Shown one piece after another: positions 45,652-54,467 of a DNA stretch of 64,000 bases. The notes beneath the pieces were generated by a model. It ran no database searches. It was not told the origin of the DNA and worked only from the letters and a program-made list of their open reading frames with translations. Source of the DNA: Candidatus Dormiibacterota bacterium (GTDB lineage Bacteria; Chloroflexota; Dormibacteria; Aeolococcales; Aeolococcaceae); assembly GCA_036495095.1 (NCBI GenBank), contig DASXNK010000191.1:1-64000 (forward strand). The letters are read 5' to 3'. The position numbers and the translations under genes are program-made. Within the stretch, counting starts at the first letter, position 1. Every line of letters starts with the position of its first letter.

Positions 45652-48543
45652 TCAGACGCCCACCGCCGGAACCGCCGCGGCGGGCTCGGCGGCGGCGGCG
45701 GCGCGGACCGCTGCCCCGCCCTCGTCGCAGATCGTCCGGTAGTCGCAGCGGCGGCACCGCCAGGGCGAGGGGTTGGGCGGGAACCCGTGCTCGTTCCAGG
45801 CGCGGGAGAGGTCGATCGCGCTGAGCGCGATGTGGGCGTGGGCCTTCCGCAGGGCGGCGCCCTCGAGCACCACCCGGGTCACCTCGGCGGTCTGCAGGTG
45901 GTGGAGCTCGACCGCCACCCGGTCGGCGTGGTCGCGCTGGGAGATGGCGACCCCGTAGGCGCGCACCTGGAGGTCGCGGGCGGCGCTGTCGGCGGTGCGC
46001 GGCGGCCCGGTCTTGTAGTCGACGACGGTGGGGATGCCGTCGTCGCGCTCGTCGAGCCGGTCGAACCGGCCGCGGACCTCGCCGGCGTCGACGCTGAGCG
46101 CGAACGGCCGCTCCACCGCGGAGGGCCGGGCCTCGGTCCAGGCCGGGGTCTCGCCGTAGCGGCGCAGCGACTCCTCGCCGTAGCCGCGGAGCGAGCGGTG
46201 GACGCCCTTGGGACCGTGCGCCGCCTCCCACCCCTGGTGCCAGAGCCCCACCAGCCGGCCGGCGTCGACCTCCTCGCCCGCCAGCCGCATCCGCGCCGCC
46301 TGCTCGAGCACCGAGTGCACCAGCACCCCGTACCAGGTCTGCACCGAGCCCCGCGACGGCATCCGGTAGCGGCGGCGGTACTCGTAGCGGCGCGGGCACT
46401 CGCGGAAGTCGCGCAGGTCGGCCACCGAGACCTCGACGCCGACCGGCACGGTGCTGCCCCGGGGCCGGGTCCGGGCGGCGAGCGCGGCGGGGACGTGGGG
46501 AAGCTCGACACCGCGGGCCATCGCCTGGCCGGCGAGGGGCGCCAGGAAGCGGGTGGGTGCCTCGTCTCCGTACGACCGCGGGTAGCGGTGGGCGCGGGTG
46601 AGCACCAGCCGGTCGCGCGCCCGGGTGGCGGCGACGTAGAAGAGCCGCCGCTCCTCGTCGACCAGGCCGTCGCCCGGCGGGGGCGGCTCGGGGACGAGCT
46701 CGTCGGGGAGGGTGAGCGGCGCGGGGAAGCCGCCCCGGCCCGGCCAGCGGGGCTCGACGCAGCCGCCGACCACCACCACCGGCCACTCCAGCCCCTTGGC
46801 GCTGTGGGCGGTGAGCAGCACCACGCCGTCCTCGATGGCGTCGATGGCGGCGACCTCGTCGGCGGCGCCGGAGTCGCGCAGCACCTCGAGGTAGCGCAGC
46901 GCGGAGCGGAGCCGCAGGTCCTCGCTCCAGTCGGCGAAGCCGTCGAGCAGCTCGGCGAACTTGTTGAGGTTGGCGCCCGCCTGGACCCGCTCGAGGTCGC
47001 GGCTGAGCTCGGCGATGCCGAGGAACCCGCAGCGCTCCAGGGCGTCGAAGCAGAGCTCGCGGACGTCGGCGGTGAGCGCCTGGGCGTGGAGCGCGCAGAG
47101 CTCCTCGGTGGCCCGCCGCGCCGCCGCCGCGTCGGTCTCGTCGAGGCCCTCCACGGTGCCGTCGAGGAGCATCTCGCAGAGCGGGGTCTCGCTGCTGTCG
47201 CAGGCGCGCACCAGCGCCACCCGGCCCCGGTTGCTGACACACCAGGCAGGAAGTTGCAGGCAGCGGAGCAGCGCCTGGGAGTCGGCCGGGTCGTCGATGG
47301 CCCGGAGCAGCCCCAGCAGCGCCTTGATCTCCGGCTGGCGGAAGTAGCCGCGACCGCCGTGCACCTGGTACGGCACCCCGGTCTCCTGGAGGGCGGTCAT
47401 CGCCGCGCGCATGTCGTCGTGGCGGCGGAAGAGCCAGGCGATCTCGGCGCCGCGGGTGCCCGCCTCGAGCAGGCGGCGGCACTCCGCCGCCACCGCCAGG
47501 GTCTCGCTGCGCTCGTCGGGCGCCTCCCAGAGCTCGACCGCGTCGCCGTCGCCGCGGTTGGCGACCAGCTCCTTGTCGATGCGCGACTCCGGCGCGGCGG
47601 CGGCGATCAGCAGGGAGCAGGCGGCGACGATCTGCCGGGTGCTGCGGTAGTTGCGCCGCAGGGTCACGGTGCGGTGGCCGGGACGCAGCCGCCGGAAGCG
47701 GTCGAGGTTGGCGAGGCTGGCGCCGCGGAACTTGTAGATGGCCTGGTCGTCGTCGGCGACGACGAGCACGTTGCCGTGGCGCGCCACCAGCGTCTCCACC
47801 AGCCGGGCCTGGGCGTAGTTGGTGTCCTGGTACTCGTCGACCATGACGTGGCCGACCGCGTCGCAGACCGCGCGGCGCGCCGCCGGGTCCTCGCGCAGCA
47901 GCCGCTCGGCGATGAGGATGCAGTCGTCGTGGTCGAGCACCGCGAGCCGGCGGTAGCGCTCCTCCAGCCGGGCGTAGAGCTCGGCGCACTCGGCGTGGCG
48001 CTCGAGCAGCGCCTGCTCGACCTCGTCGGTGGAGACCAGCTGGCGCCGGCACGCCCAGGCGGCGTACTCCTCGGGGGTGATCAGCTCCTGCTTGGCGGTC
48101 TCGATGAGGTGGAGCAGGGGGCCGACCAGGTCGTGGGGGCGCAGCGGGTTCCAGAGGGTGCGCGGCCGCATCTCCGCGAGCACCGCCTCGAGGTGGAGCC
48201 AGCGCTCGGCGGCGTCGGCGATGTGGAAGGTGGCGGGCACCCCGCAGCGCCATCCCCACTGGCGCAGCACCCGGCGGCCGAAGGCGTGGAAGTTGGTCAG
48301 CGGGACGTCGTCGCCGAAGGGCCCGTGGAGCGCCTCGGCCCGCTGCCGCATCTCCGCCGCGGCCTTCACCGTGTAGGTGAGCACCAGCTGCCCGGAGGCG
48401 CCGGCGTCGGTGCCGCAGAGCTCGAGGAAGCGCTCGACGATCACCCGGGTCTTCCCCGACCCCGGCCCGGCGAGCACCAGGCATGCGCCCTCGCGGTGGT
48501 CGACGGCCGCCTGCTGGTCGGGGTCGAGGGGGACCGAGGGCAC
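45652..48543 (-). CDS. UvrD-like helicase fused to RecB-type nuclease
   Basis: A 963-residue SF1A helicase-nuclease. Walker A GPGSGKT at 26-32, motif II MVDEYQDTNYAQA near 238, motif III VVADDDQAIYKFRGA, and motif IV-VI blocks (VVLLTAHSAKGLEWPVVVV, YVAATRARDRL) are intact. The C-terminal region is a PD-(D/E)XK nuclease (GRFDRLDERDDGIPTVVDYKTG), with Cys residues in ECPRRYEYRRRY and CRRCDYRTIC that fit an AddB/AdnA-type 4Fe-4S clamp. It would unwind and resect DNA ends. It follows the Ku-operon ligase-like gene by 15 bases. Confidence 0.92.
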   Translation of the reverse strand: MPSVPLDPDQQAAVDHREGACLVLAGPGSGKTRVIVERFLELCGTDAGASGQLVLTYTVKAAAEMRQRAEALHGPFGDDVPLTNFHAFGRRVLRQWGWRCGVPATFHIADAAERWLHLEAVLAEMRPRTLWNPLRPHDLVGPLLHLIETAKQELITPEEYAAWACRRQLVSTDEVEQALLERHAECAELYARLEERYRRLAVLDHDDCILIAERLLREDPAARRAVCDAVGHVMVDEYQDTNYAQARLVETLVARHGNVLVVADDDQAIYKFRGASLANLDRFRRLRPGHRTVTLRRNYRSTRQIVAACSLLIAAAAPESRIDKELVANRGDGDAVELWEAPDERSETLAVAAECRRLLEAGTRGAEIAWLFRRHDDMRAAMTALQETGVPYQVHGGRGYFRQPEIKALLGLLRAIDDPADSQALLRCLQLPAWCVSNRGRVALVRACDSSETPLCEMLLDGTVEGLDETDAAAARRATEELCALHAQALTADVRELCFDALERCGFLGIAELSRDLERVQAGANLNKFAELLDGFADWSEDLRLRSALRYLEVLRDSGAADEVAAIDAIEDGVVLLTAHSAKGLEWPVVVVGGCVEPRWPGRGGFPAPLTLPDELVPEPPPPGDGLVDEERRLFYVAATRARDRLVLTRAHRYPRSYGDEAPTRFLAPLAGQAMARGVELPHVPAALAARTRPRGSTVPVGVEVSVADLRDFRECPRRYEYRRRYRMPSRGSVQTWYGVLVHSVLEQAARMRLAGEEVDAGRLVGLWHQGWEAAHGPKGVHRSLRGYGEESLRRYGETPAWTEARPSAVERPFALSVDAGEVRGRFDRLDERDDGIPTVVDYKTGPPRTADSAARDLQVRAYGVAISQRDHADRVAVELHHLQTAEVTRVVLEGAALRKAHAHIALSAIDLSRAWNEHGFPPNPSPWRCRRCDYRTICDEGGAAVRAAAAAEPAAAVPAVGV

Positions 48544-48558
48544 CGATCTCGCCTGGGG

Positions 48559-49635
48559 TCAGGGTTGGGTGAACGGGAGGGTGTGGAGCACGGTGGGGCG
48601 GAAGCCGCGGCCGGTCACCTCGCCGGCCGGGGGCGGCAGCGGGGCGCGGCGCACGCACCAGGCGGGATCGCGGTCGTCGCGGAGCGCCACCAGCTCGGGA
48701 CGGCTGAGCTGGCCGCCGGCGAGGCGCCCGCTGTGGCGGACGGTCGCCACCAGCTCGGGCTGAAGCCAGGACACCCGTCCCGGCGGCACCACCGCGCAGC
48801 GGCACGGCGGGGCGACCGAGGCGAGCTCGCCGAGCTGCTCGCACAGCCAGGCCTCGACCGACGCGGGGAGGTGGACGGCGACGCTGCCGGCGTCGGCGAG
48901 CCGGCCGCGGTGCTGCTCGCCGAGCACCAGGGCGCTCACCGAGCCGCCGGGCTGCCGCACCACCCCGGTGACCACGGTGTCGGCACGGTCCTCGAGGGGG
49001 ATGCGCAGCCGCTGGGGCGAGGCCACCCCGGCCGAGTAGGTGGCCCCGGCATGCCGCGCCAGGATGGCGGGGAGGTGCTGGCTGGTGGCCGCCTCGGCGA
49101 GGGCGCAGCCGTCGCCCGCCACCCACTCCGGGACCTGGAGGTGGGGCTGCCCGGTCACCGCCCGCTCCAGCGCCTGGAGCCGGTCGCCGAAGGGTCGCTG
49201 CTGCAGCGAGGCGCCGTCGAGGTGGAGCAGGTCGGTGGCGATGAACACCGCCGCCACCCCGGGCTCGCCGGCCCGCCGCCGGGAGAGCGCCTCGAGGTCG
49301 GGGCGGCCGCGGGGGTCGAGGACGGTGAGCACCCCGTCGACCACCGCGGTGTGGCCGCCGAGGGCGGCGGCGACCTCGCCGATCACCTCCGGGAAGCGGT
49401 CGCCGAGCTCGCGGCGGCGCTCGTCGCGCAGCCGCGCCTCACCCCCGGCGCCGGCGGCGAGGAGCACCCGGATGCCGTCCCAGTCGACCGAGAACCGCCA
49501 GTCCTCGGCGTCGAAGGGCCCGCTGCAGGGCACCGCCACCTCGAGGGCCACGTCGGCGGGCAGGGCCGGGGGCGGGGGGAGGCTCAGCGGCAGGGACGCG
49601 GCGGCGGGCCGGGGGTGAGGGAGCGGCCGCCTCAC
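48559..49635 (-). CDS. LigD-like ATP-dependent ligase homolog lacking catalytic residues
   Basis: A 358-residue protein with the two-domain layout of the LigD ligase module (adenylylation domain about 40-205, OB-fold about 215-340), coupled to Ku (GTGA overlap). The motif I Lys of KYDGxR is Asp51 (VDWDGIR), the motif III Glu is Val (VVDGVLTVLD instead of VVDGEIVALD), and the motif IV Glu and motif V lysines are also replaced (RLRIP instead of WLKVK). The C-terminal part keeps VSWLQPELVATVRHSGRL and the downstream block. It is therefore probably not a ligase but a structural or regulatory partner. Confidence 0.78.
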   Translation of the reverse strand: MRRPLPHPRPAAASLPLSLPPPPALPADVALEVAVPCSGPFDAEDWRFSVDWDGIRVLLAAGAGGEARLRDERRRELGDRFPEVIGEVAAALGGHTAVVDGVLTVLDPRGRPDLEALSRRRAGEPGVAAVFIATDLLHLDGASLQQRPFGDRLQALERAVTGQPHLQVPEWVAGDGCALAEAATSQHLPAILARHAGATYSAGVASPQRLRIPLEDRADTVVTGVVRQPGGSVSALVLGEQHRGRLADAGSVAVHLPASVEAWLCEQLGELASVAPPCRCAVVPPGRVSWLQPELVATVRHSGRLAGGQLSRPELVALRDDRDPAWCVRRAPLPPPAGEVTGRGFRPTVLHTLPFTQP

Positions 49636-50549
49636 GACGCCTTGCGACGGCGGACCGGAGCCTCGGCCTCGTCCTCGGCCCTGGCGGCCGCCCGGCGCCG
49701 TCCCTTGGTCGGGACCGCCTCGGCCTCCGCGGCCGGCTCCGCCTCCGCGTCGGCCGGTGCCTCCTCGCGGGTGCGGCGCGAGGCCTCCACCGACGCCTTG
49801 AGGGCCGCCATCAGGTCGAGCGCGCGGGCGGGCTCGGCGGCGGGCGCCGGGGCCTCGGTGGGCTGCTCGCTCATCTTCTCCTCGACGATCTGCAGCAGCG
49901 CCTCGCGGTAGCGATCGGTGTGCCGCGCCGGGTCGAAGCTGGCGGTGAGGTTGTCGATCAGCATCTTGGCCATCTCGAGCTCCCGGTCGTCGACCTTGAC
50001 GTCCTCGCCGGGGAGCTTGAGCTCGTGCTGGTCGCGGATCTCGTCGGGCCAGTGCAGGGTGTTGAGGACCAGGCCGTCCTCGTGGAGGGCCAGGCGGCAG
50101 AGGTGCTCTCGGTCGCGCAGCGCGATCCGGCCGATGGCCACCCGCCCGGTGCTCTCCAGCGCCTTGCGGAGCAGCGCGTAGGGCTTGGCCCCGACCGCCT
50201 CGGGCTCGAGGTAGTAGGCGCCCTTGATGTAGACGCCCGGGTCGATCTCGGAGTCGTCGACGAACTCGAGGATCTCGACCGCCTTGGTGGTGGACAGCGG
50301 GACCCGCTCGAGGTCGGCGTCCTCGATGTGGACGAACTCGTCCTTGGCCACCTCGTAGCCGCGCTGGGTCTCCGTCCAGCCGATCTCGCGGTCCTCGTGG
50401 GGGCACCACCGCTTCTGCTTGATCGGGCGCCCGCAGGTGGGGCAGAGCATCCGGAAGGAGACGCTCTTCGACTCCGTGGCCAGGTACATCCGCACCGGGA
50501 TGGCCACCATGCCAAAGCTGATCGCGCCGCGCCACATGGACCGTGCCAT
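49632..50549 (-). CDS. ku: Ku DNA-end-binding protein
   Basis: A 305-residue bacterial Ku homodimer subunit. It begins MARSMWRGAISFGMVAIPVRM, then CPTCGRPIKQKRWCPHEDREIG, YEVAKDEFVHIEDADLE, KGAYYLEPEAVGAKPYALLRKALE, and LPGEDVKVDDRELEMAKMLID. The C-terminal tail from about 215 is Ala/Glu/Arg-rich and basic at the end (RRRKAS), as in mycobacterial or streptomycete Ku tails that contact DNA and LigD. Loads on double-strand ends. Leaderless: TATCCT ends 7 bases before the ATG. Confidence 0.97.
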   Translation of the reverse strand: MARSMWRGAISFGMVAIPVRMYLATESKSVSFRMLCPTCGRPIKQKRWCPHEDREIGWTETQRGYEVAKDEFVHIEDADLERVPLSTTKAVEILEFVDDSEIDPGVYIKGAYYLEPEAVGAKPYALLRKALESTGRVAIGRIALRDREHLCRLALHEDGLVLNTLHWPDEIRDQHELKLPGEDVKVDDRELEMAKMLIDNLTASFDPARHTDRYREALLQIVEEKMSEQPTEAPAPAAEPARALDLMAALKASVEASRRTREEAPADAEAEPAAEAEAVPTKGRRRAAARAEDEAEAPVRRRKAS

Positions 50550-50631: not shown

Positions 50632-51147
50632 CTACGCCACCAGGGCGTCGTAGGCCTGCTTGAGCTCGGGGTGGCGGAGGAAGAGGATGTGGCTGAACTC
50701 CTGGGTCAGGGGCCCGGGGCGGCGGCGGAGGCGGAGGCCGACCTCGTCGGGCTGGCTGTTCGCCTTGCGGCCGTTGCAGCGGCGGCAGGCCACCACCTGG
50801 TTCTCCCAGGTGCTCGGGGCGCCCCCGCGGGAGACCGGGACGACGTGGTCGATGGTCAGCTCGGAGGCGGGGCCTCCGATCCCGCAGTACTGGCAGGTCA
50901 TGTCGTCGCGGAGCAGGAGGTTGCGGCGGTTCGGCCGGAGGGTCCGTCGGGGCACGTGGACGGCGCGGAGGAGCCGGGCGATGACGATCCCCTGGGGGAG
51001 CCGCCGCTCGCGGATGGCGGCCTCCGCCTCGCGCTCGGCCTGGGCGTCGAGGAGGGCGATCCGCTCCTTGCCGAGCAGGATGAGGAGCCGACGCTTGCTG
51101 ATCACGTTGAGCGGCTGCATCGTCGCGCTGAGGAGCAGGACCGCCAT
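50632..51147 (-). CDS. HNH endonuclease
   Basis: A 171-residue HNH nuclease. The Zn/HNH core is CQYCGIGGPASELTIDHVVPVSRGG...WENQVVACRRCNGRKAN, with two CxxC pairs and the HV catalytic His. An N-terminal helical region of about 80 residues precedes it (NVISKRRLLILLGKERIALL). It lies between the LigD and Ku genes on the same strand with its own -10 box, so its role in end joining is only suggestive. No methylase or immunity gene accompanies it. Confidence 0.9.
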   Translation of the reverse strand: MAVLLLSATMQPLNVISKRRLLILLGKERIALLDAQAEREAEAAIRERRLPQGIVIARLLRAVHVPRRTLRPNRRNLLLRDDMTCQYCGIGGPASELTIDHVVPVSRGGAPSTWENQVVACRRCNGRKANSQPDEVGLRLRRRPGPLTQEFSHILFLRHPELKQAYDALVA

Positions 51148-51237: not shown

Positions 51238-51726
51238 CTAGCGGGCGGCGGCGAGCACCACGAAGAGGACGAACGGAACGGCGCCGGCGACGGCGATCCC
51301 CAGCCGGAGCAGCGTCCTGCGGTCGGGCGCCTCGCCCCGGGCGCGGCGGCGCAGCCGCTCGCCGCCGCCGCGGCCGGCCTCGACCCACCGCGAGACCCTC
51401 ACCCCGCCGAGCAGGGCGCTCATCCCCAGGGTGGCCATGCCGAGCAGGAGCGAGGCGTTGCCGAGCCCGGCGAGGCCGTCGCCGCCGGCCAGCCGGGTGA
51501 GCAGCCCGACCAGCGCCGCCAGCCCGACCAGGCCCACCCCCCCGGCGAGGCCGAGCCGCGCCGCCTCCGCCGGGCTCCCCGGCACCGGTGGCCGCCGGCG
51601 GGCGGGAGCGGCCCGGGGGACGCGCGGCCGCCGCTCCAGGGCCGCGACCCGGACGCCGCAGCGGGCGCAGTGGGTGGCGCCGGGGTCGAGCCGGGCGCGG
51701 CAGAGCGGGCAGTCGAACCGCCCCAT
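51238..51726 (-). CDS. Zinc-ribbon membrane protein, 162 residues
   Basis: The N-terminus is a zinc ribbon with two CxxC pairs (CPLC and CARC in MGRFDCPLCRARLDPGATHC...). A basic, Pro/Arg-rich linker follows, then about three membrane helices (GGVGLVGLAALVGLLTRLAG, ASLLLGMATLGMSALLGG, LGIAVAGAVPFVLFVVLAAA). The ATG shares one base with the LigD stop (TGATG), so it is co-translated with LigD. No family recognised; it might tether end-joining proteins to the membrane, which is speculation. Confidence 0.75.
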   Translation of the reverse strand: MGRFDCPLCRARLDPGATHCARCGVRVAALERRPRVPRAAPARRRPPVPGSPAEAARLGLAGGVGLVGLAALVGLLTRLAGGDGLAGLGNASLLLGMATLGMSALLGGVRVSRWVEAGRGGGERLRRRARGEAPDRRTLLRLGIAVAGAVPFVLFVVLAAAR

Positions 51727-54467
51727 CAGCCGCCTCCCGCCGGGGCCGGGGTGCCGGGCAGGTCCTGGCCGCCCTCCAGCACCGGCGCGAAGAGGTCGCC
51801 GACCGCCGCCAGCCGGGCGTGGATGGTGCGGATGTTCCAGCCGTCGGGACGCAGCCCGGGGTCGTCGAGCTCCTCCCAGGTGATCGGCGTCGACACCGGG
51901 GCGCCGGGCGCGGGGCGGAGCGAGTACGGGGCGGCGAGGGTCTTGCCGATGATGTTCTGGGTGTAGTCGATGCGGATGCGGCCGGTGCGCCGGGCCACCG
52001 ACCACTCCCAGCTGATCTTGTCCGGCAGCACCTGACCGATCGCCCGGCCCACCTCCTCGACCCAGCCGCGGACGGCGGCGTAGTCGGGGCCGCGGCGCAG
52101 CGGGACGTAGATCTGCAGGCCGGTCTGGCCGCTGGTCTTCGGCAGCCCGCGCAGCCCCAGGTGGTCGAGCGCGGCCTTCACCAGCCGGGCGACCTCGCGG
52201 ATGTCGTCGAAGGTGGCGGGCTCGAACGGGTCGAGGTCGAACACCGCCCAGTCGGGCTGCTCGGGGGCGTCGATCCGGGAGTGCCAGGGGTGGAGGTCGA
52301 TCGCCCCGCTGTTGGCCATCCAGGCGAGGGTGGCGACCTCCTCGGCGATCACGTAGGTGACCTCCCGGTCGCCGTGCCAGGTCCAGCGCCGGATCCACGC
52401 GGGGGCGTGGTCGGGGATGCGCTTGCGCCAGAAGTGCTTCCCGTGGATGCCGTCGGGGAAGACCTGCATCCCCACCGGGCGGTCGCGGAGGTGGGGGAGG
52501 AGCACCGGGGCCACCCGGACGTAGTGCTCGATCATGTCCCGCTTGGTGCAGCCGTCCTCGGGCCAGTACACCTTGTCGAGGTTGGTCAGCCTCAGCCGGC
52601 GGCCGCCCACCTCCCAGGCGCCGTCCGGGCCCATCCCGCGCAGCCGCTCCAGCGCCTCCTCGATCTCGTCGCGGGGGTCGGGGCCGGGGTCGGGGTCGGG
52701 GTCGGGCCTGGCCCGCGCCGCCGGGTCCGCGACCTCGACCGCCACCGCCGACAGGGGGAGAGCCCGCTCGCGGACGCAGTCCTCGGGCCGGACGTCGGGG
52801 CGCAGGCCGCGGAAGACGGGGTGGCGCAGCGTGCCCGCGGCGGTCCACTCGGTGAAGCGGACGCTGCAGACCAGCTCGGGGCGCACCCAGGTCACCGGCT
52901 GGGGGATCGAGGGCTCCGGGTCGAAGGGGCTCCGCTCGGTGCGCAGCGGCTCGAGGCGGCGGCGGAGCAGGTCGATCATCGCCTCGTCGAGGCCGCTCCC
53001 CGCCTGGCCCGCGTGGACCAGCACGCCGCCGTCGTACACCCCGAGCACCAGCGAGCCGACGCTCCCGGTCCGGCCGCCGCGACCGGCGGTGAGCCCGCAG
53101 ATGACGCAGTCCTGCTCGCACCAGGCCTTCACCTTCAGCCATGCCGCCGAGCGCCTGCCGCCCTCGTAGCGGGAGTCGCCGCGCTTGGCGACCATGCCCT
53201 CGAGGCCGCGCTCCCTGATGGCGGCGAAGAGCGCCTCGCCGTCCTCCTCGACGTGGTCGGCGTAGCGCACCTCGGCGCTCTCGGTGAGCAGGTCGCGGAG
53301 CAGCCGCTTGCGGAGGCTGAGCGGCAGGTCGCGGAGGTCGTGGCCGTCGAGGTGGACCAGGTCGAAGGCGGCGAAGCTGGCGGGCACCTCGGCGGCGGCG
53401 AGGGCCACCTGGCGGGCGCCGGTCACGTTGATGCGCCGCTGCAGCCGCTCGAAGGAGGGCCGGCCCTCCTCGTCGAGGGCGACGATCTCGCCGTCGACCA
53501 CCGCCTCGCGGGCGCGCAGCGCGCCGGTGAGGGCGGCGAGCTCGGGGTAGCGGCCGGTCTCGTCCCGGCCGCTGCGCCCGCGGAGGTGCACGCCGCCGTC
53601 GCGGAGGGTGGCGAGCGCCCGCACCCCGTCGTACTTCATCTCGAAGAGCCAGCCGGCGCGCGAGAACGGCTCGGCGACGGGCATCGCGAGCATCGGCCGC
53701 AGCGACGTCGGCAGCCGCCGCTCCGGGGTGGAGGCGAGCACCTCGGCGAGCGAGCGGGTGGCGGGGGCGGCCGCCCTCCCCGGGTGCAGCCCGGCGGCGT
53801 CCCAGGTGTCGCCGTCGACGGCGGCGGCGATCTCGGCGAGGCTGCGCCCGGTCTTCACCGACCAGTCCAGCTCGATGGCGTCGAAGCCGGGCACGACGAA
53901 GGCGTCGCGCTTCTTGATCAGCAGCCAGTCGCGGTCCTCCTCCACGGTGGGCTCGGGCAGGTCGGCGCCGCGGCGGCGCCCGCCGCGTCCGCCCATCCGC
54001 ACCAGGGCGAACTCGCCGTGGAGCTTCTGGCCGTCGAGCGAGAACTTCAGGTCGCCGCGGCGCAGCGAGGCGTCGGGGTCCTCGGCGGTCTCGCGCAGCC
54101 ACTCGTAGGCGCCGGCGTCCCAGAGCTCGACGGTGCCGGCACCGTAGCCGGATGGGATCACCCCCTCGAAGTCGCCGTACTCGATGGGGTGGTCCTCGAC
54201 GTGGACCGCGTAGCGGCGCTGTGCGGGGTCGAGGGTGGGCCCCTTGGGCACCGCCCAGGAGAGCAGCACCCCGCGGTGCTCGAGCCGGAAGTCGAAGTGC
54301 AGCCGGGTGGCGCGGTGCATCTGCACGCAGAACCGGCGCCCGATCGGCAGCAGCTCCCAACCCGGGTAGCCGGCCCCGGCGGCGGCCGCGCCCGCCACCC
54401 CCTCGCCGCCCCGCGGCTCCGGGGTGCGCGAGAAGTCGCGCTTGCGGCGGTACTCCTCCAGGGGCAT
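51726..54467 (-). CDS. ligD: Multifunctional DNA ligase D (PE-Lig-Pol)
   Basis: A 913-residue NHEJ enzyme. The phosphoesterase domain is first (residues about 45-165, RATRLHFDFRLEHRGVLLSW), then the ATP-dependent ligase domain with adenylylated Lys278 in EMKYDGVRAL, VVDGEIVALD and EGMVAKR, then a D/P-rich linker, and finally the archaeo-eukaryotic primase-like polymerase (about 600-890) with catalytic Asp744 and Asp746 in VFDLDPFEP. It trims, extends and seals Ku-bound breaks. The order is Pseudomonas-like, unlike mycobacterial Pol-PE-Lig. All key residues are intact. Confidence 0.97.
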   Translation of the reverse strand: MPLEEYRRKRDFSRTPEPRGGEGVAGAAAAGAGYPGWELLPIGRRFCVQMHRATRLHFDFRLEHRGVLLSWAVPKGPTLDPAQRRYAVHVEDHPIEYGDFEGVIPSGYGAGTVELWDAGAYEWLRETAEDPDASLRRGDLKFSLDGQKLHGEFALVRMGGRGGRRRGADLPEPTVEEDRDWLLIKKRDAFVVPGFDAIELDWSVKTGRSLAEIAAAVDGDTWDAAGLHPGRAAAPATRSLAEVLASTPERRLPTSLRPMLAMPVAEPFSRAGWLFEMKYDGVRALATLRDGGVHLRGRSGRDETGRYPELAALTGALRAREAVVDGEIVALDEEGRPSFERLQRRINVTGARQVALAAAEVPASFAAFDLVHLDGHDLRDLPLSLRKRLLRDLLTESAEVRYADHVEEDGEALFAAIRERGLEGMVAKRGDSRYEGGRRSAAWLKVKAWCEQDCVICGLTAGRGGRTGSVGSLVLGVYDGGVLVHAGQAGSGLDEAMIDLLRRRLEPLRTERSPFDPEPSIPQPVTWVRPELVCSVRFTEWTAAGTLRHPVFRGLRPDVRPEDCVRERALPLSAVAVEVADPAARARPDPDPDPGPDPRDEIEEALERLRGMGPDGAWEVGGRRLRLTNLDKVYWPEDGCTKRDMIEHYVRVAPVLLPHLRDRPVGMQVFPDGIHGKHFWRKRIPDHAPAWIRRWTWHGDREVTYVIAEEVATLAWMANSGAIDLHPWHSRIDAPEQPDWAVFDLDPFEPATFDDIREVARLVKAALDHLGLRGLPKTSGQTGLQIYVPLRRGPDYAAVRGWVEEVGRAIGQVLPDKISWEWSVARRTGRIRIDYTQNIIGKTLAAPYSLRPAPGAPVSTPITWEELDDPGLRPDGWNIRTIHARLAAVGDLFAPVLEGGQDLPGTPAPAGGG
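52674..52703 (-). repeat. 5 x 6-bp tandem repeat coding the (Asp-Pro)n linker of LigD
   Basis: The plus strand has five GGGGTC-type units (one is GGGGCC), encoding the D-P dipeptide linker between ligase and polymerase domains. On the plus strand the regular G-runs could form a quadruplex. Confidence 0.85.

Follow-up and report, generated by a model that had tools for sequence, protein, structure and literature searches.

A gene directly downstream of Ku, in a stretch of 64,000 nucleotides from a Candidatus Dormiibacterota bacterium (contig DASXNK010000191.1, positions 1 to 64,000; in the following, the window), encodes a DNA ligase module in which the catalytic residues have been replaced. 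This pseudo-ligase, found in Dormibacteria and related soil bacteria, is a pseudoenzyme under purifying selection, and its catalytic loss is fixed across lineages. As commonly taught, bacterial non-homologous end joining (NHEJ) consists of two proteins, Ku and LigD. We consider it somewhat probable that the pseudo-ligase is a non-catalytic third subunit of this system, a ligase fold that would sit on Ku and on the paired DNA ends and arrange these ends for LigD.

Fold of the protein and loss of the catalytic residues

The protein scored above the curated Pfam cut-offs for both ligase domains, PF01068 (30.6 bits, cut-off 26.2) and PF04679 (33.8 bits, cut-off 27.5), and below the equivalog cut-off of TIGR02779 (128.1 vs. 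227.75 bits). Its alignment with the ligase module of the window's own LigD spans 339 columns at 33% identity (E 2e-31), and the ligase domain of Mycobacterium tuberculosis (Mtb) LigD was matched with an E-value of 7e-21. The AlphaFold2 (AF2) model had a mean predicted local distance difference test (pLDDT) of 83.3 and a predicted template modelling score (pTM) of 0.81, and showed a nucleotidyltransferase (NTase) followed by an oligonucleotide-binding (OB) fold. When this model was compared to the PDB using Foldseek, the top matches (6nhx, 1vs0 and 6nhz; E 6e-25 to 5e-22) were all Mtb LigD ligase domains, the best being 6nhx with an E-value of 6e-25 and a TM-score of 0.63 by query length.

Motifs I, III, IIIa, IV and V were then read residue by residue. 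None of the residues that mark a functional NHEJ ligase, i.e. the Lys of KxDG in motif I, the Glu of motif III, the Glu and Lys of motif IV and both Lys of motif V, is present (Table 1). A preliminary description of this locus had listed these replacements and had claimed kinship with the LigD ligase module, a retained OB-like C-terminal part and a GTG start codon overlapping the Ku stop. All of this was borne out: every substitution is correct by alignment, the kinship and the NTase fold are seen in the profile scores, the alignments and the model, the OB part is supported by the PF04679 match and by the strands at residues 217-319 of the model, and the GTG start and the TGA stop of Ku overlap within a single GTGA (49635-49632).

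Mutational work on Bacillus subtilis LigD allows these replacements to be interpreted. The substitutions K24A, K189A, K206A, K208A and E184A abolish ligation and retain 5'-deoxyribose phosphate (dRP) lyase activity, and the motif IV and V residues were shown to be essential in both the B. subtilis and the Mtb enzyme (PMC4770248). Because the equivalents of the essential B. subtilis residues in motifs I, IV and V are replaced, ligation by the pseudo-ligase is excluded: judged from its residues and on established chemistry, the protein should be unable to form a lysyl-adenylate and hence to seal DNA.

Conservation and linkage to Ku

The family to which the window belongs (Ca. Aeolococcaceae, Dormibacteria; f1) was represented by 32 genomes, which like all genomes examined here are metagenome assemblies. 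Orthologues of the pseudo-ligase were found in 26 of them including the window's own, at 45-93% identity. Motif I could be read in 25 f1 sequences, the window's included, and all of them have Asp or Glu in the column of the motif I Lys. Likewise, Val or Ser stands in place of the motif III Glu and Arg in place of the motif IV Lys, motif V is lost, and with motif IIIa altogether five motifs of the nucleotide pocket are gone in f1. For close pairs within the family, the ratio of non-synonymous to synonymous substitution rates (dN/dS) was 0.10-0.39 for the pseudo-ligase; the LigD ligase domain gave 0.11-0.29 and Ku 0.03-0.20.

A further trait of these proteins is their near lack of lysine. The window protein contains none, 17/25 f1 sequences contain none either (the window's being among them), and the maximum is two. 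GC bias as the sole cause of this was rejected, since the LigD ligase domains of the same f1 genomes keep 5-16 lysines at a similar GC content at third codon positions. No function is claimed for this trait.

Ku was found directly upstream of the pseudo-ligase in 25/25 f1 loci with enough sequence, and the pseudo-ligase was found in 25/25 f1 genomes with a Pfam match to Ku. Four f1 genomes (G017, G021, G022 and G023) have neither Ku nor any ligase match, and they also lack the pseudo-ligase. By its conserved operon and its co-occurrence with Ku the gene thus behaves as an NHEJ component, and we infer that both proteins are made from one transcript and co-translated. In f1 genera with LigD nearby, the gene order is LigD-HNH-Ku-pseudo-ligase. 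In genus g6 the pair of Ku and pseudo-ligase is retained, and LigD and the HNH gene do not adjoin Ku. Ku is therefore the sole constant neighbour, as the helicase-nuclease gene following the pseudo-ligase in the window is found there only in the window's genus. KDG..E..K..KK is intact in every LigD read, both from these genomes and from related ones, and the LigD of the window is presumably the catalytic partner of the pseudo-ligase.

These comparisons also agree with what the preliminary description had said about the gene's history, namely that it is not a decaying pseudogene and is tied to Ku. The first point is supported by orthologues in 25 other f1 genomes and by their dN/dS, the second by the upstream Ku at every assessable f1 locus and by the presence of the gene in every Ku-positive f1 genome. 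Its question whether Ku neighbours in related genomes keep the substitutions can be answered as well: the Ku-linked f1 orthologues all have Asp or Glu at motif I, and the Lys occurs only in more distant homologues outside f1, mainly in family f4. Neither of the two findings that it had named as contradicting it, a motif I Lys kept in related genomes and a model lacking the NTase fold, was obtained within f1.

A C-terminal peptide common to active and dead forms

In Dormibacteria, the Ku-linked ligases end in a Pro-rich linker followed by a terminal hydrophobic peptide, which reads FxPTVLxxLPL in f1, IQLPRLPI in family f3 and YDLTRFPF in f4. The pattern L..[LF][PL][LFIC] was found within the last 30 residues of 22/22 f1, 15/16 f3 and 35/36 f4 proteins (72/74 in total), where shuffling gave expectations of 0.55, 0.22 and 0.07, respectively; as the pattern was chosen after inspecting the tails, these expectations show only that it is not an effect of composition. 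Within the last 30 residues, it occurred in 0/39 LigDs and in 0/12 proteins of families f78, f92 and f82. The tail is thus common to the active and the dead Ku-linked ligases of the class, and from its sequence it appears to behave like a docking peptide that has outlived catalysis.

Related stand-alone ligases and the number of losses

The motif survey was carried out on Chloroflexota/Dormibacteria genomes. The pseudo-ligase belongs to a wider group of stand-alone ligases, most of them linked to Ku. In f3 and f4, which belong to the same class as f1, Ku is likewise followed directly by a gene for a stand-alone ligase. In f4 all motif residues are intact in 31/37 copies, and these Lys-bearing homologues appear to represent the gene family in its active form. 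The degraded f4 copies comprise those of genus g37 (G108 and G109; motif I Lys to Arg, motif III Glu to Val, motif IV Glu to Ala, motif V lost) and of G086, G087 and G107, which keep the motif I Lys and have lost other motif residues. In f3 the motif I Lys is replaced by Ala or Ser in 16/16 copies and the KxK of motif V by (L/A)x(E/D/Q/L), with the motif III Glu retained. The dN/dS of these dead f3 copies (0.09-0.16) is near that of intact f4 copies (0.07-0.10).

Outside the class, f78 (Chloroflexota) has Ku-linked stand-alone copies in which Lys is replaced by Met or Leu and the Asp of KxDG by Gly in 8/8 genomes, giving M/L-x-G-G at loci L208, L209, L226 and L231-L235; these copies have no C-terminal tail. 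Among its order-mates, f92 keeps the Lys, has Gly for the Asp and has lost motif V, and f82 has Arg for the Lys. The motif III Glu, the IIIa aromatic residue and the motif IV Lys are largely kept in f3 and f78.

In the trees, a LigD/LigC group (97/96) stands apart from the stand-alone groups. Support for the monophyly of f1, f3, f4 and f78 is full or nearly so in each case; the order of the deep nodes is weak, and there are long branches. When only losses are counted, the well-supported branches give at least four of them for the motif I Lys (g37 within f4; f78+f82; f44+f73; f1/f3). The number probably rises to five or six if f1, f3 and G121 are placed correctly. The residues that took the place of Lys differ between lineages (D/E, A/S, R, M/L, L and Q).

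Several candidates for a wider membership were set aside. Matches from Solirubrobacterales, Nocardia and Arthrobacter (L094-L097) were dropped; L095 proved to be a normal LigD whose motif V is intact, and L094, L096 and L097 show LigD domain architecture. An f1-type LigD-HNH-Ku-pseudo-ligase cluster (L098) lies on contig C176 of G073, an f4 genome with 9% contamination. In the trees the cluster falls within f1, and the contig is probably misbinned or a contaminant, for which reason it was not counted for f4. A tblastn search of plasmids gave only 27-31% matches among the matches listed, and those annotated were ligases or LigD.

Proposed function and alternative explanations

Precedents from other systems make a structural role conceivable. 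The core of Mtb Ku binds the isolated ligase domain (PMC9638933), and therefore a dead ligase module on Ku is plausible. Human LIG4 without catalytic activity still promotes end joining in cells and stimulates LIG3 (PMC9638927), and during synapsis both ends are bound by a single LIG4 molecule (PMC10858965). By analogy, the ligase fold of the pseudo-ligase would sit on Ku and on paired ends, its flexible C-terminal peptide would dock on a partner, and the protein would stabilise or arrange the end-to-end complex, which the separate, intact LigD would then process and seal. These parallels suggest that the protein could bind Ku, DNA or LigD and bridge the ends, and it may serve as a scaffold, as an end-binding factor or as a regulator of LigD. 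Taken more widely, we see about an even chance that such proteins are a third core NHEJ component in much of Chloroflexota/Dormibacteria, i.e. that a stand-alone, Ku-linked ligase family gave up catalysis several times, convergently, to become a structural subunit for end synapsis or LigD control, in Dormibacteria with a docking peptide.

Some observations weigh against a general role of this kind. Gene neighbourhood alone is no proof of a physical interaction. The degraded f4 copies (G086, G087, G107, G108 and G109) are those without Ku seen adjoining, and two dead relatives with Lys replaced by Leu or Gln (L222 in G382 and L225 in G315) come from genomes without a Ku match; these two are possibly dead ligases without NHEJ. 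In some lineages, the dead ligase may thus not be working with Ku. Such relatives also speak for the idea that the protein has left NHEJ for another DNA role, for example as an adaptor of the helicase-nuclease or of the HNH protein, with the Ku linkage as a historical remnant, and the helicase-nuclease gene does follow directly in the window's genus. However, it does so only in that genus, the HNH gene is not beside Ku in g6, and Ku is constant, with the presence of the pseudo-ligase tracking that of Ku across f1; we regard this idea as improbable.

The main rival to an assisting subunit is a regulatory antagonist, a brake that would compete with the LigD ligase domain for Ku or for the ends and so limit or time joining. 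The shared fold, the operon with Ku and the known binding of the ligase domain by Ku (PMC9638933) are all compatible with it, and a dead competitor needs a surface and not chemistry, which is exactly what is kept. On the other hand, Ku-linked f4 members of the family whose catalytic motifs are intact have the tail as well, so that the ancestral role was probably cooperative. We rate antagonism as rather unlikely, though the most serious of the competing explanations. Another retained activity of the ligase domain, either 5'-dRP/apurinic-apyrimidinic (AP) lyase or nucleotide binding as a sensor, is suggested by the ligation mutants of B. subtilis LigD that keep the dRP lyase (PMC4770248) and by f3 and f78, where the retained residues of motifs III, IIIa and IV could let ATP binding survive. 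Lyase activity needs a lysine, however, and the window protein and 16 other f1 members have none; a lysine Schiff base is therefore impossible in these proteins, leaving only the N-terminal amine, and in f1 the nucleotide pocket is lost. We hold this explanation to be very improbable. Finally, the absence of all catalytic residues and the use of metagenome assemblies could point to a ligase gene in decay or to an error of assembly. Given 25 further independent genomes with full-length frames, dN/dS well below 1, a good AF2 model and conserved non-catalytic motifs including the tail, this can be practically dismissed.

Features of the locus

The features are collected in Table 1. The HNH-like gene is 67-94% identical among, and found at the same place in, the f1 genomes that keep the cluster, and is possibly a further NHEJ-associated nuclease. 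Two more loci of the same genome (G000) are related to NHEJ components. A second Ku gene (L241, contig C183, 1219-2073, minus strand) is about 52% identical to the Ku of the window, and no ligase was seen in the short flanks read around it. On contig C147 (L117, 7724-9492, plus strand), a ligase module with intact motifs is followed by a POL module, with no PE seen.

Table 1. Genes, domains and motif positions at the Ku/pseudo-ligase locus (window coordinates).
Feature	Position	Strand	Evidence
Pseudo-ligase gene, 358 aa	48559..49635	-	PF01068 and PF04679 above cut-offs; family orthologues; dN/dS 0.10-0.39
NTase-fold part, about residues 44-225	48961..49506	-	PF01068 at residues 44-181; AF2; Foldseek 6nhx
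OB-fold part, about residues 231-329	48649..48945	-	PF04679 at residues 231-322; AF2 strands 217-319
Motif I nucleophile Lys to Asp51	49483..49485	-	Asp/Glu in all 25 family sequences with the column
Motif III Glu to Val102 (family: Val or Ser)	49330..49332	-	Alignment
Motif IV Glu to Pro189, Lys to Arg194 (LigD EGMVAK, here PAILAR)	49054..49071	-	Alignment
Motif V KxK to Arg211-Ile-Pro213	48997..49005	-	Alignment
Disordered C-terminal tail, F-x-P-T-V-L-x-x-L-P-F (LxxPhiPPhi)	48562..48615	-	AF2 pLDDT < 50; tail comparison
Ku, 305 aa, immediately upstream; stop overlaps pseudo-ligase start	49632..50549	-	TIGR02772 286.5 bits, PF02735
HNH endonuclease-like gene between LigD and Ku	50632..51147	-	PF01844 50.5 bits; conserved position where LigD and Ku are clustered
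Intact LigD (PE-LIG-POL), motif I EMKYDG, all catalytic motifs kept	51726..54467	-	Profile matches; orthologue motifs
UvrD helicase fused to PD-(D/E)XK nuclease, directly downstream of pseudo-ligase	45652..48543	-	

Comparison with known systems

If the proposed role is correct, a Ku-tied dead ligase would add a structural subunit to bacterial NHEJ. It would also provide a parallel from nature to the work on engineered LIG4 mutants, in which the ligase's structural part in bringing ends together proved separable from catalysis; with homologues that range from intact through partly degraded to fully dead, this separation is directly testable. A literature search for inactive or pseudo-ligases in bacterial NHEJ returned only engineered LIG4 mutants; since subscription literature lay mostly outside this search, the novelty is provisional.

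The closest known relative is the LigD ligase domain (TIGR02779, NHEJ_ligase_lig; Mtb structures 1vs0 and 6nhx), with which the pseudo-ligase shares the NTase and OB folds, an alignment over 288 residues and the linkage to Ku and NHEJ. It differs in being stand-alone, without fusion to POL or PE, in its replaced catalytic residues and in its unique C-terminal tail. The stand-alone, ATP-dependent LigC-type ligases of mycobacteria and Streptomyces similarly represent a second ligase beside LigD and have been implicated as an NHEJ back-up. However, LigC is described as catalytically active (PMC5124664), whereas the pseudo-ligase is predicted to be dead and is tied to Ku. A likeness in function would also exist to engineered inactive LIG4 of vertebrate NHEJ, a non-catalytic ligase that promotes joining by another ligase (PMC9638927) and from which, together with the binding of both ends by LIG4 (PMC10858965), the role suggested here is drawn by analogy. 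Those proteins are laboratory mutants of an active enzyme, whereas the pseudo-ligase is a dead form that has been fixed naturally, as a separate gene, and repeatedly.
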